Source: Spirochaetia bacterium (GTDB lineage: Bacteria; Spirochaetota; UBA4802; UBA5550). From it: a stretch of 64,000 nucleotides of DNA. The notes below the pieces were generated by a model, which saw only the letters and a list, made by a program, of their open reading frames with translations, made no database searches and was not told the DNA's origin. Below, in pieces: positions 22,027 to 33,194 of this stretch. The DNA lies in assembly GCA_009885955.1 (NCBI GenBank), contig VFJS01000009.1, positions 1 through 64,000 on the forward strand. The letters are read 5' to 3'. The first letter of the stretch is position 1. Every line of letters begins with the position of its first letter. The position numbers and the translations under genes were made by a program.

Positions 22027-23268
22027 TTATTCCGGTTTTCCCATTTTTCTGATTAAATGCTTCCTTAGAAAATCAATGGCAACAAGTGAAGAATGGTTTC
22101 TAATTCTCTCCCGCGTACCGATTATCTCCCGTTTGAAAACAATTATTTCATCGTGTATTGCAAACCCGAAAAATACTGTACCCGCTGGTTTTTCCGATGA
22201 CCCGCCCCCGGGCCCTGCAATTCCTGTTACAGAAACCGCGGTTTCGGTCTTAAAAATTTTTTTTGAGCATAGCGCCATTTCTCCTGCCACTTCTTCGCTT
22301 ACCGCGCCATGCCTTGATATTAGCTCCTCCTGAATTCCCAGAATTTTTACCTTCATTTCATTGCTGTAAGCTATTAATCCTCCGGAATATGCAAGGGAGG
22401 ATCCGGGGATGTCGGTTATTCTTTTTGATATAAGTCCGCCGGTGCAGGATTCAGCAACAGATAATTTGAGCCGGTTTTTTATCAGCACTTCCAGCAGTTC
22501 CTCTTCAGGAAGGAGAAGGCCGTTTCTGAGAATATTTTCATTAAAAATCTGTTTGAGGCTGTTCAATATACCAGTCCCGTTAAACCGGGCTCCGTCCTGG
22601 ACAAAAGTGAGGGTACTTATCCCGCCTTCAGCAGTGATTCCCCAGATGCAATCATTAATAACTACACCCATGGTTTTGACTTTTTCATTTATTTCACTCT
22701 CTTTCATCCCCACAATTTTAGCCGTGACATTGTTTCTGATTATTTTTCCAAATTTAGCAGCTAAAAAAGGGAGGACCTCCTCATTGAACATGGAAATCAT
22801 TTCAACAGGAACTCCGGGAAGCGCTATGATTAACTTATTGATATATTCCAGTATGAACCCGGGGGCAAGTCCGAGCCTGTTTTTTATAATTTTTGAGCCG
22901 GAAGGAACTTCGGCCATTTTATGATCCGATTCATTGAATGATCTCCCAAGGGACAGGAGAACTTTTTTCATCTTATCAAAAGCATGATTATCGATGTTGA
23001 TGGAAAAATTAAAGATCTGCCTCAGTGCCTCAATGGTCATATCATCATCTGTCGGGCCAAGCCCGCCAGAAATAATTATGGCGTCGGAATTAGCCATTGC
23101 GAATTGAATTATTTTTTTCAAGTCGTCAATGTTATCGCCTGTGGTAAAATGATACTTCACTTCAATGTTTGAGCTGAAAAGGGCATTGCTGATAAAACTG
23201 GAATTTCTATCAGCTATTTTACCGTACATTAATTCATTACCCGTGGATATGACAGATAGGATTTTCAT
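22027..23268 (-). CDS. cinA: CinA family protein (competence/damage-inducible; NMN deamidase domain)
   Basis: A 413-residue CinA protein. The N-terminal MoCF-like domain starts I-S-T-G-N-E-L-M-Y-G-K and carries I-I-S-G-G-L-G-P-T-D-D and A-L-P-G-V-P-V-E. The C-terminal PncC domain has V-A-E-S-C-T-G-G-L-I-S-K and V-T-G-I-A-G-P-G-G, typical of nicotinamide-nucleotide amidase. It probably recycles pyridine nucleotides. I choose the ATG at 23266-23268 (M-K-I-L-S-V-I-S) with AGGA upstream, rather than the longer frame that runs into argS. It lies 13 nt after argS, so it is likely co-transcribed. Confidence 0.9.
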   Translation of the reverse strand: MKILSVISTGNELMYGKIADRNSSFISNALFSSNIEVKYHFTTGDNIDDLKKIIQFAMANSDAIIISGGLGPTDDDMTIEALRQIFNFSINIDNHAFDKMKKVLLSLGRSFNESDHKMAEVPSGSKIIKNRLGLAPGFILEYINKLIIALPGVPVEMISMFNEEVLPFLAAKFGKIIRNNVTAKIVGMKESEINEKVKTMGVVINDCIWGITAEGGISTLTFVQDGARFNGTGILNSLKQIFNENILRNGLLLPEEELLEVLIKNRLKLSVAESCTGGLISKRITDIPGSSLAYSGGLIAYSNEMKVKILGIQEELISRHGAVSEEVAGEMALCSKKIFKTETAVSVTGIAGPGGGSSEKPAGTVFFGFAIHDEIIVFKREIIGTRERIRNHSSLVAIDFLRKHLIRKMGKPE

Positions 23269-23281
23269 AATATCCTGAAAA

Positions 23282-24961
23282 TTACATCTTTTCCGGAGTG
23301 GAAATGCCAAGGAGCCGGAGGCCATTTCTCAGGACGATGCGCACTGAATCCGAGAGGAAAAGATAGGAATTAGTTTTTATGGCATCATCGGTCAGGACCC
23401 TGTGTTCAGTGTAAAATCTATGGAAGACCTGCGCGAGCCTCAGAAGATAATTGGCAATCTTGTGCGGTTCAAGGGTTTCAGCAGCGCTGGCAATCTCTTC
23501 AGGGTATTTAAGAATCATTTTGATCAATGCCACTGATTCATGGCCTTTAAGGTGTTCATTTTCAATATCTTTATAATCCCGGTGTATACCCCGTTTTTCA
23601 GCCTCCCTGAATATAGAGCAGATACGGGCATAGGCATACTGGAGATAAAATACCGGATTTTCGGAGCTCTCCTTTTTGGCCAGCGCAAGGTCGAAATCGA
23701 GGTGACTCTCCAGGGACCTCATGATAAAAAAATACCGCGCAACATCAACCCCTATCTCTTCAATGAGCTCGCTCATCGTTGAAAAATTCCCGAGCCTCTT
23801 GGACATTTTTATGGTGTCCCCTTCCAATACGAGGTTAACCTGCTGTGCTATGAGAACAAAAAATTCACCATGGTATTCCAGGGCCTTAACTGCCCCTTCA
23901 AGACGTTTTATATAGCCGTGATGATCCGGGCCCCATATATCTATGATTAAATCATATCCACGCCTGATCTTATCCCTGTGATAAGCTATGTCAGCCAGCA
24001 AATACGTAGGCCTGCCATCATCCCTCATGACAACCCTGTCTTTATCGTCCCCGTAATCAGTTGAGCGGAATAATTTTTTTCCTTCATCTGAATAGATTAC
24101 ATTTTTGCTTTCAAGCTCCTTTAATGTTGCGGACACATCGCCTGATTGGTGGAGTGAGCTCTCTTTAAACCAGCAGTTGTATTTCACATTGAACTTTTCA
24201 AGATCCTGTTTCTGCCTTTCAACATTAAACCGGATTGCCATTTCAGAGGAAAAATCATTCAATTCCTTTTCAAGCATCCTTGAACCGAGGTCTTCACTGA
24301 AGTTTTCCAGCACATGAGCAGCGATGTCCCTTACATAAGCTCCATGGTACCCGTCTTCAGGGAAATGAGAATCTTCGCCCCTGATTTCTCGGATCCTTGC
24401 CAGGACTGATTTCCCCAGGAGTTCCACCTGGTTTCCGTAATCGTTAACATAAAATTCACGTTCAACAATATCACCGTTCGCTTCCAGTATCGAGGCTATT
24501 GTGTCGCCGATCGCAGCGGCCCTTGCCGATACAATATTCAAAGGCCCGGTAGGGTTTGCAGAAACAAATTCCAGGTTCACGCGCCTCGGCTTTTCTTTTG
24601 TACACCTGCCGAAGGAAAAATCTTTTATTGTAACTTCCTTCATCATTTCAATGAGGTAATCAATTGAAAAAAAAATGTTAATAAACCCGGGTTTGACTAC
24701 CTCAACTTTATCAATTTCATTATGCTTTTCTATAAATTCTTTAAGGGTTGCGCCTATTTCCATGGGCGGCTTCCGTAGAAGCCTGGCAGTTTCCAGTGAG
24801 AATGAAGAAGAAGTATCTCCGAATTTCTGTTCCTTGGGATATTCCACTCTGCATTGCGGGTAGTCTACACCACCGGGGAGTGCGCCTTCACCTATGGCTT
24901 TTGCTACCGCTGATGATAATATTTTGTATGTAATTTCTTTAAAATTAAAATCATAATTCAT
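23282..24961 (-). CDS. argS: arginyl-tRNA synthetase with altered HIGH motif
   Basis: A 559-residue class I aminoacyl-tRNA synthetase charging tRNA-Arg. The N-terminal Add-1 domain, E-F-V-S-A-N-P-T-G-P-L near residue 131, F-Y-V-N-D-Y-G-N-Q, the K-M-S-K-R loop and the C-terminal DALR anticodon-binding helices with W/Y-rich end are all present. The HIGH box, normally H-[VI]-G-H after G-P-L, reads N142-I143-V144-S145, so both signature histidines are missing. The rest is full length and intact, so the gene is surely functional; the change may be a lineage trait. It heads a minus-strand cluster with cinA, aroQ, GPAT-like and lipase genes. Confidence 0.93.
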   Translation of the reverse strand: MNYDFNFKEITYKILSSAVAKAIGEGALPGGVDYPQCRVEYPKEQKFGDTSSSFSLETARLLRKPPMEIGATLKEFIEKHNEIDKVEVVKPGFINIFFSIDYLIEMMKEVTIKDFSFGRCTKEKPRRVNLEFVSANPTGPLNIVSARAAAIGDTIASILEANGDIVEREFYVNDYGNQVELLGKSVLARIREIRGEDSHFPEDGYHGAYVRDIAAHVLENFSEDLGSRMLEKELNDFSSEMAIRFNVERQKQDLEKFNVKYNCWFKESSLHQSGDVSATLKELESKNVIYSDEGKKLFRSTDYGDDKDRVVMRDDGRPTYLLADIAYHRDKIRRGYDLIIDIWGPDHHGYIKRLEGAVKALEYHGEFFVLIAQQVNLVLEGDTIKMSKRLGNFSTMSELIEEIGVDVARYFFIMRSLESHLDFDLALAKKESSENPVFYLQYAYARICSIFREAEKRGIHRDYKDIENEHLKGHESVALIKMILKYPEEIASAAETLEPHKIANYLLRLAQVFHRFYTEHRVLTDDAIKTNSYLFLSDSVRIVLRNGLRLLGISTPEKM

Positions 24962-25212: not shown

Positions 25213-27216
25213 ATGGGTTCTGTTAAATTAGATAAAAATCATCTTGTCGGATTTTTAATATCTATCATTGTCTTTATTGTTTTGTCAACAATATACACCT
25301 TTACAACAGTATTGGAGGGAATGGAATATGGCGGTATCGACTTCAGATTTTTTCTGAGGGATCCCATTGAAAAAAGCCAGAGCCTGGGAAAGGGAGTGAA
25401 AAGGACAAATATCAACCAGAGGGCAAGAAAAGATATAATTATAATCGGCATTGATGAAAGCACAATAAGGGAATTTTCTGATAAAGGCAAGAACTGGCCC
25501 TTTGACTGGAATATCCATGCAAAAGTAATAAAAAACATACGTACAGGGGAACCCAAATCAATATTCTTTGATATTATGTTCATGGATCACAAACCCTATG
25601 AAAAGGAGCTTGCTGAAGAGATAAGCCTGGCAGGAAATGTATTTCTTGATTTCCCCTTTGAAAATGAGGAAATTGGAAAGGATTATATTGACCAGAAAGA
25701 GAGAATGGAACTCCTGAACAGGGTCAGATTCAAAGTCCCGGCTGGAGATAATACAAAACAGCTTGTTGCCGAGGCTGTCCCCCCTACCCCGCTCCTGACC
25801 AAATCTGCCAAGGGGATTGGATATGCGAATGTCTTCCCCGGCAGGGACAAGGTAAACAGGACTATGCCGCTGATTTTAAAGCTGAATGGATGGTACTATC
25901 CTAATATAGATTTGGTGATAGTTATGCACTTCTATGGAATAGGGATGAATGATGTTGAAGTAAAACCCGGGCATTATATCAAGCTCAAAAATATTCCACC
26001 GGAAAAAATGCGAAAGCCAAACAAAGAAAGGGAGATTGCAATACCCATCGATGAATATGGATTTATGGATATCAACTATACCGGAGGAGCCGGCAGTTTT
26101 ACCCACCATTCATATAATCTTTTTCATGCAAATGTCATCGATGCCAAAAAAGGTAATACTTCCATTAAAGATAAAATACTCCTCGTAGCTGCCTATGCCT
26201 CCACTGGTATAGCAACTGATGAAAAAAAATCGCCCTATGGAGCCACCTTCGGAATTGAACACCATGCCAATGCCCTCAATACGATATTAAACCAGGATTT
26301 CCTCTTCAAGATGACTGAATTTCAGAATTTACTATTAATGCTGGCAATTGCAATCATCATGGGACTTATCGTATCAAAAGCATCAATCATCATATCGGTA
26401 ATTTTTACCATGCTGTTCTCAATCTTCTATATTTTCATTTCATACCTGTTATTTGATAAATTCAGCATAATAACTGCAATGGCCACTCCTGTAATACAAA
26501 CCGGCCTTACCTTTACGCTCATTACCGCTTTCAGGGTTTTAACTGAACAGAGGGAAAAAAAATACATCAGAAGCACGTTCTCAAAATTTGTATCCAAATC
26601 AGTCGTTGATGAACTTTTAAAGCATCCTGACAAGTTGAAGCTTGGTGGAGACAAAAAGATACTCACTGTCCTTTTCTCCGACATAAGGGGTTTCACATCA
26701 ATCTCTGAAAAATTTACCCCGGAACAGCTTGTTGAGCATCTCAACGTATATCTTCAGGCAATGACCGATATAGTTTTCAAATATGAAGGCACCCTGGACA
26801 AATATGTCGGGGACATGGTCATGGCTTTCTGGGGAGCACCAATACCCCTTGAAAACCATGCACTTAACGCAAGCAAGGCAGCCGTCGAAATGATGGTCGT
26901 CCTTGGCAAGATGAATGAGAGCTGGAAGGCTGAAGGGAAACCGCCCCTGGACATCGGCATCGGGTTAAATACAGGGGCCATGGTTGTAGGCAACATGGGC
27001 TCGGCTATACGGATGGACTATACCATAATGGGAGACAATGTTAATCTCGGATCGAGACTTGAAAGCACCAATAAGATTTACGGGACAAATATAATAATCA
27101 GCGAATTTACTTATGAACATGTGCGGGATCATGTCATAGTCAGAGAGCTTGATCTCATAAAGGTAAAAGGGAAAGAGCTTCCGGTAAGGATCTATGAGCT
27201 AATCGATCTGAAATAG
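25213..27216 (+). CDS. CHASE2-domain class III adenylate cyclase
   Basis: A 667-residue membrane sensor cyclase. One N-terminal helix (about residues 10-32) is followed by a periplasmic CHASE2 domain to about residue 350 (opening D-F-R-F-F-L-R-D, with F-D-I-M-F after the first strand), then about three helices to residue 450. The class III catalytic domain follows: metal-binding Asp490 in F-S-D-I-R-G-F-T and Asp534 in Y-V-G-D-M, and G-D-N-V-N-L-G-S-R-L-E giving the transition-state Asn and Arg. It makes cAMP in response to an unknown periplasmic signal. GAGAGG precedes the ATG. Its 3' end overlaps the convergent AsmA-like gene by 18 nt. Confidence 0.88.
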   Translation: MGSVKLDKNHLVGFLISIIVFIVLSTIYTFTTVLEGMEYGGIDFRFFLRDPIEKSQSLGKGVKRTNINQRARKDIIIIGIDESTIREFSDKGKNWPFDWNIHAKVIKNIRTGEPKSIFFDIMFMDHKPYEKELAEEISLAGNVFLDFPFENEEIGKDYIDQKERMELLNRVRFKVPAGDNTKQLVAEAVPPTPLLTKSAKGIGYANVFPGRDKVNRTMPLILKLNGWYYPNIDLVIVMHFYGIGMNDVEVKPGHYIKLKNIPPEKMRKPNKEREIAIPIDEYGFMDINYTGGAGSFTHHSYNLFHANVIDAKKGNTSIKDKILLVAAYASTGIATDEKKSPYGATFGIEHHANALNTILNQDFLFKMTEFQNLLLMLAIAIIMGLIVSKASIIISVIFTMLFSIFYIFISYLLFDKFSIITAMATPVIQTGLTFTLITAFRVLTEQREKKYIRSTFSKFVSKSVVDELLKHPDKLKLGGDKKILTVLFSDIRGFTSISEKFTPEQLVEHLNVYLQAMTDIVFKYEGTLDKYVGDMVMAFWGAPIPLENHALNASKAAVEMMVVLGKMNESWKAEGKPPLDIGIGLNTGAMVVGNMGSAIRMDYTIMGDNVNLGSRLESTNKIYGTNIIISEFTYEHVRDHVIVRELDLIKVKGKELPVRIYELIDLK

Positions 27217-31304: not shown

Positions 31305-33194
31305 ATGCACTTCTCAAAAAAGAAAATAACCCGTTCCCTGATTATCTGCCAGATTTTTTTCCTCTTTTCATTTATACATACAGGCAACAGGTTTTTTATC
31401 ACAGTTAAACCGCTTTGGGCTGAAAAAGAGAAGGATAACGAAAAAACTGATGGAAAAGAGTCCATAAAGATAATAAAAGAAAATATTCAAGATGTCAAAG
31501 AAAACGTTAAGGAAGTAAAAGACCCGGGTAAAGTTATAAAGGAAGTTGCAGAAAAAAAAGAGGCCCCGAAGCCTGTTGTAAAAGAGAAGTATTTCACTTT
31601 GAACTTTAAGAATGTTGAAATTGAGGATTTTTTGAATATCATGAGCCAATTCATCGGGAAGAACATTATTCTCGATGACAAGATCAAAGGTAAAATTACA
31701 ATAAACTCTGCAAAACGGATTCCAATAAGCCAGGCTTATGATGTACTTAAATCAATTCTTGAGGTAAAAGGTCTGGCAATTGTAGAATCAAGCAACCTGA
31801 TTAAGGTCATACCTATAACCGATGCCCTTAAAAAAAATGCAGAAATCATTATCGACGGGAAAAAGACTGAAATTGTAGCTGAAAGGGAGGATTCAGTAAC
31901 ATTCCTTCTTGAGTTAAAATTTGCAGATGCCGCTGAAGTCTCAGGGGCATTGGCTACTTTAAAATCGAAATATATGACAATTGTTGTTTATAAGTCACTG
32001 AATACACTAATCTTCAGCGGTGCCTCCTCTGAAGTGGATGGCCTGGTTAAAATTACGAAGGCCCTTGATAAAAAAATTGAAGAGCTGATCGATGAGCCGA
32101 AGAGCATGGGAAACATACATGTAGTTCATCTTGAGAATGCAAATTCAGACCAGCTTGCCGAGGTTCTATCGCGTGTACCCTTTTCAGATTCTGCTAAGAT
32201 TGAAACTGCGCCCAGGGCTGTAAAATCTGATAAAACAAAAAGAGTGACCCAGACACAAACACCCACAACACCCAAGGCGAGCAAACTTTCTATTATATCG
32301 AATAAAGATACAAATTCCCTGATCATTTCAGCAAGCCCTGATGAATTTAAAGAGATCCAGCGATTGATAAAAGAACTCGATATCGTTAGAGAACAGGTAC
32401 TCATTGAAGCGCTGATCGTTGAGGTCGGCGTAGACAGCGGATGGGGATTTGGAATTGACTGGATGCTTGGCAATAAAGTCGGCTCGAGTCTCGTTGGCGG
32501 CTCGTCTATCATGAATGGTTTTCCGAATTACGTCCAGCCGCCAGGAATTAAGAAACAGCTGATTCTTCCAATATCAACGGGTTTTCAGCTTGGCTATTTG
32601 AGTGACACATCCATCCTTTCCTTTGCCCTGCTGAATGCATCAGGTTCAAAAAGCAATGTGAATATACTTTCAACTCCTCAGATACTTACAATAGACAACC
32701 AGGAGGCTGAGTTGAACGTCGGTGAAGAGGTCCCTGTTCAGCAGAATGCAAGGATAACTGAAACAAATGCAGCCTATTATACATGGGGATATAAGCCAGT
32801 AGGTATAAAACTTAAAATTACTCCTCACATAACTAAAAATCAGAGAATTACAATAGACCTGTATCAGGAGGTCAACACTGTCCTTGATTCTTCTGCCACT
32901 GATAAACCGCCAAAGCTCGGGAAAAGGGATATCAAGACAAAAATTACCGTTCTTGATGGAAAAACAATTGTTGTAGGAGGCCTTATCAGAAATAACAAAT
33001 CTGTATCTGAGACAAAAGTGCCATTGCTCGGAGACATACCGCTGCTTGGCTGGATCTTCAAGCATAAATCAGTAACGTACAGCAAGACAAACCTTCTGGT
33101 TTTTATTACACCATATATTGTTACCAAAGATGAAAAAATTGATAAAATCACAAATCAAAAACGTAGCGTTGAAACTATTTTAAAAAATGACTAA
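31305..33194 (+). CDS. gspD: type II secretion system secretin GspD
   Basis: A 629-residue outer-membrane secretin. A signal peptide (about residues 1-42) is followed by a charged EKD-rich linker. The N0 domain is near residues 98-175 (F-T-L-N-F-K-N-V-E-I) and N1/N2-type repeats follow (V-H-L-E-N-A-N-S-D-Q-L). The secretin core runs from about residue 365 (V-L-I-E-A-L-I-V-E-V) to L-L-G-D-I-P-L-L-G-W-I-F near residue 590. It assembles the exit channel for folded proteins. It is shorter than many GspD proteins because one N repeat appears to be missing. No pilotin gene is recognised nearby. Confidence 0.93.
   Translation: MHFSKKKITRSLIICQIFFLFSFIHTGNRFFITVKPLWAEKEKDNEKTDGKESIKIIKENIQDVKENVKEVKDPGKVIKEVAEKKEAPKPVVKEKYFTLNFKNVEIEDFLNIMSQFIGKNIILDDKIKGKITINSAKRIPISQAYDVLKSILEVKGLAIVESSNLIKVIPITDALKKNAEIIIDGKKTEIVAEREDSVTFLLELKFADAAEVSGALATLKSKYMTIVVYKSLNTLIFSGASSEVDGLVKITKALDKKIEELIDEPKSMGNIHVVHLENANSDQLAEVLSRVPFSDSAKIETAPRAVKSDKTKRVTQTQTPTTPKASKLSIISNKDTNSLIISASPDEFKEIQRLIKELDIVREQVLIEALIVEVGVDSGWGFGIDWMLGNKVGSSLVGGSSIMNGFPNYVQPPGIKKQLILPISTGFQLGYLSDTSILSFALLNASGSKSNVNILSTPQILTIDNQEAELNVGEEVPVQQNARITETNAAYYTWGYKPVGIKLKITPHITKNQRITIDLYQEVNTVLDSSATDKPPKLGKRDIKTKITVLDGKTIVVGGLIRNNKSVSETKVPLLGDIPLLGWIFKHKSVTYSKTNLLVFITPYIVTKDEKIDKITNQKRSVETILKND

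Follow-up and report, generated by a model that had tools for sequence, protein, structure and literature searches.

The arginyl-tRNA synthetase (ArgRS) encoded in the window analysed here (the whole stretch of 64,000 nucleotides) is probably the housekeeping ArgRS of its organism, and one of a large bacterial set in which the entire HIGH box has been replaced, H-x-G-H giving way to N-[I/V]-V-[S/N]; such an enzyme would activate arginine without HIGH histidines, by means of groups that were present in KMSK-type ArgRS before the change. Textbooks name the HIGH histidines as the catalytic signature of the class I synthetases, and here both of them, together with the glycine on the adenine side, are missing from an enzyme that is apparently the sole ArgRS in many bacteria, one Leptospiraceae genome included. 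For work on synthetases the case is clearly of interest, as a natural test of how essential HIGH is.

The window ArgRS and its altered motif

The gene lies on the minus strand, for which the initial annotation gave no indication. Its product scored 390.9 bits against the argS family model TIGR00456, above the curated cut-off of 261.65 bits, and carries the three Pfam domains of an ArgRS in order, each over its cut-off. The features are listed below; "Val144 type" denotes ArgRS with neither HIGH histidine and with valine at the third motif position, and rows are aligned sequences.

23282..24961, minus strand: argS, arginyl-tRNA synthetase, 559 aa, open frame from ATG to stop codon (TIGR00456, 390.9 bits)
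24668..24919, minus strand: Arg_tRNA_synt_N domain (PF03485), residues 15-98 (Pfam, E 9.7e-17)
23756..24595, minus strand: catalytic domain (PF00750), residues 123-402 (Pfam, E 5.3e-16)
23285..23644, minus strand: DALR anticodon-binding domain (PF05746), residues 440-559 (Pfam, E 4.7e-35)
24539..24556, minus strand: N136-P-T-G-P-L141, conserved lead-in of the HIGH box (N136 in 163/163 Val144-type rows)
24527..24538, minus strand: N142-I-V-S145, replacing H-I-G-H (alignment and relatives)
24518..24520, minus strand: Ala148, which is Gly, Trp, Gln or Asn in other ArgRS motif types (Ala 97% versus 0-3%)
23915..23932, minus strand: G344-P-D-H-H-G349, with Pro345 accompanying Val144 and with His347 and His348 kept (row comparison; a model helix starts at 345)
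23840..23842, minus strand: Gln374, the sole position besides the first KMSK residue at which the Val144 group is enriched in a hydrogen-bond donor (donor 86% versus 5% and 0%; Gln 74%)
23795..23809, minus strand: K385-M-S-K-R389 loop with Lys388 kept (Lys at 388 in 162/163 Val144-type rows, one row being gapped)

The motif stretch reads N136-P-T-G-P-L-N142-I-V-S145-A-R-A. The alignment to the ArgRS of Campylobacter jejuni (3fnr, NPTGPLHIGHARGA) is free of gaps at this point, NPTGPL-NIVS-ARAAAIGD standing against NPTGPL-HIGH-ARGAVFGD, and the register of NIVS versus HIGH is therefore secure. All three key positions of the box are altered: the first histidine is Asn142, the glycine is Val144 and the second histidine is Ser145. 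The initial annotation had reported both HIGH histidines absent and KMSKR intact, and was correct on both counts (the loop occupies residues 385-389); it had not recorded the loss of the third-position glycine, nor that of the glycine after Arg147, which is Ala148 in the window protein. The class I pattern H-x-G-H is thus lacking, the KMSKS-type loop is present as K385-M-S-K-R, and the IleRS2-like form G/AXHH, with histidine at positions 3 and 4, is not seen either, these positions being Val144 and Ser145. A HIGH motif displaced to another part of the protein was ruled out, as a scan of the whole window ArgRS for H..H gave no match.

The predicted structure of the protein (pLDDT 95.4) was closest to 3fnr, with a Z score of 35.8 and an rmsd of 2.0 over 446 residues at 38% identity, and Foldseek agreed. 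The 15 best structure matches were all ArgRS, with Z from 35.8 to 27.3, the next being a CysRS at 21.3. Helices in the model begin at residues 143 and 345, and the altered motif opens the helix spanning 143-161. The window protein thus shares with the canonical KMSK-type enzyme of C. jejuni its family, fold, NPTGPL lead-in, GxDHHG and KMSKR motifs and DALR domain, and differs from it in having NIVS and GPDHHG where 3fnr has HIGH and GADHHG.

Directly after argS comes a CinA-family gene (window 22027-23325, minus strand), the longest frame of which shares 44 bases with the end of argS; an inner ATG is its likelier start. A protein with CHASE2 and adenylate/guanylate cyclase domains is encoded divergently from argS (25213-27216, plus strand), and a secretin of the GspD type with an N0 domain (31305-33194, plus strand) lies close to the beginning of a series of same-strand genes.

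Distribution, selection and copy number

A contig scan yielded 205 confirmed relatives, of which 80 were kept; as these stand nearest to the query, their proportions are not a frequency in nature. Both histidines were absent in 68 of the 80 (35 xVS, 30 xVN and 3 xVQ), 12 had only the fourth-position histidine, and none kept both. The sample was enlarged with the best-scoring loci and with chosen stretches, again weighted towards relatives, giving 315 loci with an ArgRS frame and, with L001, L002 and L131 left out, 300 distinct ArgRS including the window's own. Neither histidine was present in 166 of these, both in 53, only the first in 46 and only the fourth in 33, with a gap at the motif in 2. 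Valine occupied the third position in 163 of the 166 sequences without histidines (xxV[S/N/Q], mostly N[I/V]V[S/N]); the remaining three comprised two QIGN and one SISY. Some latitude was seen at the first position of the Val144 type, where N, V, A, S, G, L, I and T all occurred.

Of 392 Spirochaetota genomes, 83 contained a strict DNA pattern with asparagine first and valine third; among the Bacillota, the phylum of the Clostridiales bacterium G395, 38 of 299 genomes had it. The reversed pattern gave zero matches in the same kind of search. Named carriers included Spirochaetes MAGs, Leptospiraceae, Bacillota MAGs, Goldiibacteriota, Auribacterota, Cloacimonadota, Calditrichota, KSB1 and Eisenbacteria, with a further group without histidines in the Armatimonadota. 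The suspicion voiced in the initial annotation, that similar variants occur in spirochaetes and may mark a particular clade, was therefore borne out for the Spirochaetota and was too narrow as a statement on distribution, as the variant is also found in Bacillota, KSB1, Eisenbacteria, Cloacimonadota, Goldbacteria, Calditrichota and Armatimonadota, while other Spirochaetota families retain HIGH. The variant is real and widespread, and probably ancient. The same annotation had allowed that it might turn out to be common and already described: it is indeed common (166 of 300 distinct ArgRS, in a sample weighted towards relatives), but no description of NxVS or NxVN ArgRS was found in the literature searched, in which subscription journals were mostly beyond reach. 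Within that literature it is apparently undescribed for ArgRS, precedents for a changed motif existing in IleRS2 and TrpRS.

Other variants were also encountered. An HMGN form with K/RMSKR, in which the second HIGH histidine is asparagine, accounted for 39 of the 300 distinct ArgRS (L157-L184 and L279-L313, in the phylum of G395). Nearly every HIGH variant seen occurs within one phylum, the Armatimonadota, whose sample (L248-L277, phylum of L041) held HIGH, HAGN, HIGN, TVAH, SVAH, QIGN, SVVN, LVVQ, AVVQ and NVVN.

Among the 163 Val144-type genes the valine was invariant, and it was encoded by GTC in 54, GTG in 47, GTT in 40 and GTA in 22. All four GTN codons being used, the change is selected and not an artefact, and chance, sequencing error and assembly error were rejected on the strength of this codon variety in relatives. 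Position 142 was AAT in 82 genes and AAC in 64, that is, asparagine in 146/163, with another residue in 17; position 145 was serine (from both TCN and AGY codons), asparagine or glutamine. As judged from the codons, purifying selection is acting on Asn142, Val144 and Ser145 as a new fixed state.

The genome from which the window derives is 98.35% complete, and a family search of it returned a single argS over the cut-off, so that the check for a second copy proposed in the initial annotation yielded none. The only other match, at 23.8 bits, was a LeuRS fragment match with an intact HMGH and was discarded as a second argS; the canonical pattern NPTGPLHxGH was absent from this genome. In 20 genomes of named relatives, whose completeness was not given, argS was found over the cut-off in all and exactly once in 19. 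The relatives' loci were of the Val144 type in 18 of the 20, and 17 of these 18 genomes had a single argS. Since the variant is the only argS in these 17 and in the organism's own genome, almost all of these organisms would have to rely on it for charging tRNA-Arg. The exception, Candidatus Auribacter fodinae (G397), has two full argS genes (L185 and L186), one with HTGH and KMSTR and the other with NAVS and KMSKR. Two divergent argS genes, both with HVGH, were also seen in G528 (L283 and L284).

Residues associated with Val144 and the history of the type

Residues were compared in a thinned set of 252 rows, 48 having been dropped as more than 80% identical, short or gapped at the motif; the groups compared were 137 Val144 rows, 40 HxxN rows and 22 HIGH-plus-KMSK rows. 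The Val144 group was marked by Val144 (100%), Ala148 (97%), Pro345 (97%, 133/137) and Gln374 (74%). At position 345 the rows with glycine at the third motif position mostly have alanine (90% of the HxxN and 77% of the HIGH-plus-KMSK group). Valine at position 3 together with histidine at position 1 or 4 was found in 0/137 rows, which indicates that the site changes as a unit; our reading is that of a working ArgRS whose HIGH site would have been rebuilt as a whole. Behind the pairing of Val144 with Pro345, Ala148 and Gln374 stand 2 independent contrasts; significance would need far more, and these linked changes by themselves prove nothing.

The initial annotation had held that another residue must compensate for the lost histidines. 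No histidine, lysine or arginine was newly conserved at 70% or more in the Val144 group and below 50% in both HIGH-bearing groups, the only lysine listed by this filter being the first KMSK residue, a position at which the other rows mostly have arginine; the idea that a new basic residue compensates was thus rejected. The claim was only partly supported: the older GxDHH motif and the KMS-Lys are kept, and Ala148, Pro345 and Gln374 accompany Val144. His347 was present in 163/163 and His348 in 161/163 Val144-type rows, and basic residues kept in at least 97% of the group include Arg147, His328, Lys331, Arg334, His347, His348, Lys388, Arg389, Arg409 and Arg446, all of which are conserved in HIGH-bearing relatives too. 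GxDHH and KMSKR show the same conservation in HIGH-bearing ArgRS, so that it is elimination and not covariation that makes them candidates. To judge from these alignments, no obvious substitute was recruited when the site lost its histidines, and the remaining groups are common to KMSK-type ArgRS.

Lys388 was kept in 179 of 182 rows without the fourth-position histidine and lost in 41 of 70 rows with it. On well-supported branches this amounts to 6 independent pairs (sign test, p = 1), and a trade-off between this histidine and the KMS-Lys is not claimed, as the pattern may reflect shared history. The three rows lacking both residues include L318 (SISY, without KMSK), which sits on a very long branch and is doubtful.

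A FastTree phylogeny of the 252 rows, built with the motif columns removed, required 4 changes for the 140 rows without histidines. One branch (support 99), reaching across phyla, contained 128 of them, and the other 12 fell among the Armatimonadota, which in the tree also hold HIGH, HxxN, TVAH, SVAH and QIGN forms. In an IQ-TREE analysis of 55 representatives under a better model, 8 HIGH-bearing spirochaete rows (HIGHGRW) were placed beside the NxVS spirochaetes of the window (98/96) and inside the Val144 rows (99/89); a single Val144 clade was not rejected by the AU test (p 0.421). Such nesting would mean either a regain of HIGH or several losses, and a regain in some spirochaetes is possible on this tree. 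The spirochaete ArgRS with HIGHGRW or HVGHGRW, which IQ-TREE nests among Val144-type rows, are L119-L121, L123, L126, L127, L130, L136, L137 and L145.

Proposed chemistry and alternative explanations

In several class I enzymes the first HIGH histidine stabilises the transition state of activation, its loss being reported to cost approximately 10^3-fold, and the HIGH glycine makes room for adenine; in IleRS2 a shifted helix 1 allows a bulky third residue (PMC10485003). Arginine activation by ArgRS requires tRNA (PMC7373986), and a survey of class I structures describes HIGH residues as contacting bound ligands little outside ATP complexes (PMC5919687). We infer that the window enzyme can dispense with HIGH histidines in activating arginine with ATP. 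Lys388 and Arg389 of KMSKR, His347 and His348 of GPDHHG and Asn136, acting on the phosphates, would stabilise the transition state, while Asn142 and Ser/Asn145 may serve as weaker hydrogen-bond replacements to phosphate and ribose. In TyrRS, asparagine in the fourth HIGH position is nearly as good as histidine. A shift of the helix-1 tip probably makes room for the bulkier Val144, with the adenine site shifted to match, and Pro345 and Ala148 would be changes matching this valine.

Loss of both HIGH histidines normally hints at an inactive paralogue, and the window protein might be such a paralogue, a moonlighting protein or a decaying gene, another enzyme charging tRNA-Arg. This is hardly credible for a full-length protein that retains its anticodon domain and KMSKR, evolves under purifying selection and is the sole TIGR00456 match over the cut-off in its own genome, as its counterparts are in 17 of the 18 other genomes with this type. 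Another scenario is that of a slower but sufficient enzyme: if arginine activation is not rate-limiting, loss of HIGH would be tolerated with nothing to compensate for it, and the motif would have drifted to its fixed state. The lack of any new conserved basic residue and the relative freedom of the first motif position agree with this, but Val144 in 163/163 and Asn142 in 146/163 rows across several phyla speak of strong constraint and not of drift, and Pro345 and Ala148 change along with Val144; we consider it unlikely.

It has also to be asked whether a natural ArgRS inhibitor mimicking arginyl-adenylate exerted the selection that changed the motif, as in the mupirocin hyper-resistance of G/AXHH IleRS2, in which the altered third position blocks the inhibitor with a mild effect on catalysis (PMC10485003). 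The age of the variant and its occurrence in many phyla, together with the finding of no second ArgRS beside it except in G397, make such an origin very improbable. We know of no such ArgRS inhibitor. An extension of the preferred reading, that of arginine activation by groups already present in KMSK-type ArgRS, is possible though doubtful: a multi-phylum ArgRS lineage would form the aminoacyl-adenylate without HIGH histidines or glycine, stabilisation having moved to the GPDHH histidines and the KMS-Lys, and a full HIGH box would later have been regained in Spirochaetota from such an ancestor (HIGHGRWAA forms). If true, HIGH, the best known of the class I signatures, can be both discarded and rebuilt.

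The need for HIGH is directly testable, as nature provides related ArgRS pairs with and without the motif, even inside one phylum; tools or drug designs keyed to HIGH in ArgRS overlook part of bacterial diversity. The closest parallel, the G/AXHH form of IleRS2, is likewise a natural and widespread change of HIGH in a housekeeping synthetase that includes the third, adenine-side residue, but IleRS2 keeps two histidines, one moved to position 3, whereas the window ArgRS has none and has no known link to an inhibitor (PMC10485003). TrpRS has TIGN, so that HIGH is not universal in class I (PMC10201369). It resembles the present case as a class I family without either histidine, its position-4 asparagine recurring in the NVVN form of ArgRS; it differs in being another family and in keeping the glycine, and the ArgRS change affects only some members of its family, the others retaining HIGH.

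The ArgRS that lack KMSK (HLGH with MKSR, HVGH with FKTR; 28 of 252 rows) likewise have one class I signature eroded, but represent the reverse case: HIGH is (nearly) intact, the KMS-Lys is missing and Lys139 precedes HIGH, a position that is Gly139 in 100% of the Val144 group. In these enzymes the lysine before HIGH compensates for the missing KMS-Lys. Seven Omnitrophota ArgRS (L060, L065, L066, L070, L072, L079 and L080) combine T/S-I-A-H with M/L-S-T-R; they have lost the KMS-Lys and carry glycine at position 139, so that the lysine before HIGH is missing as well. In the Spirochaetota, the KMSK-lacking ArgRS L100, L104, L109, L110, L117, L118 and L124 have glycine or serine as the first HIGH residue (GIGH, SIAH, SMGH).
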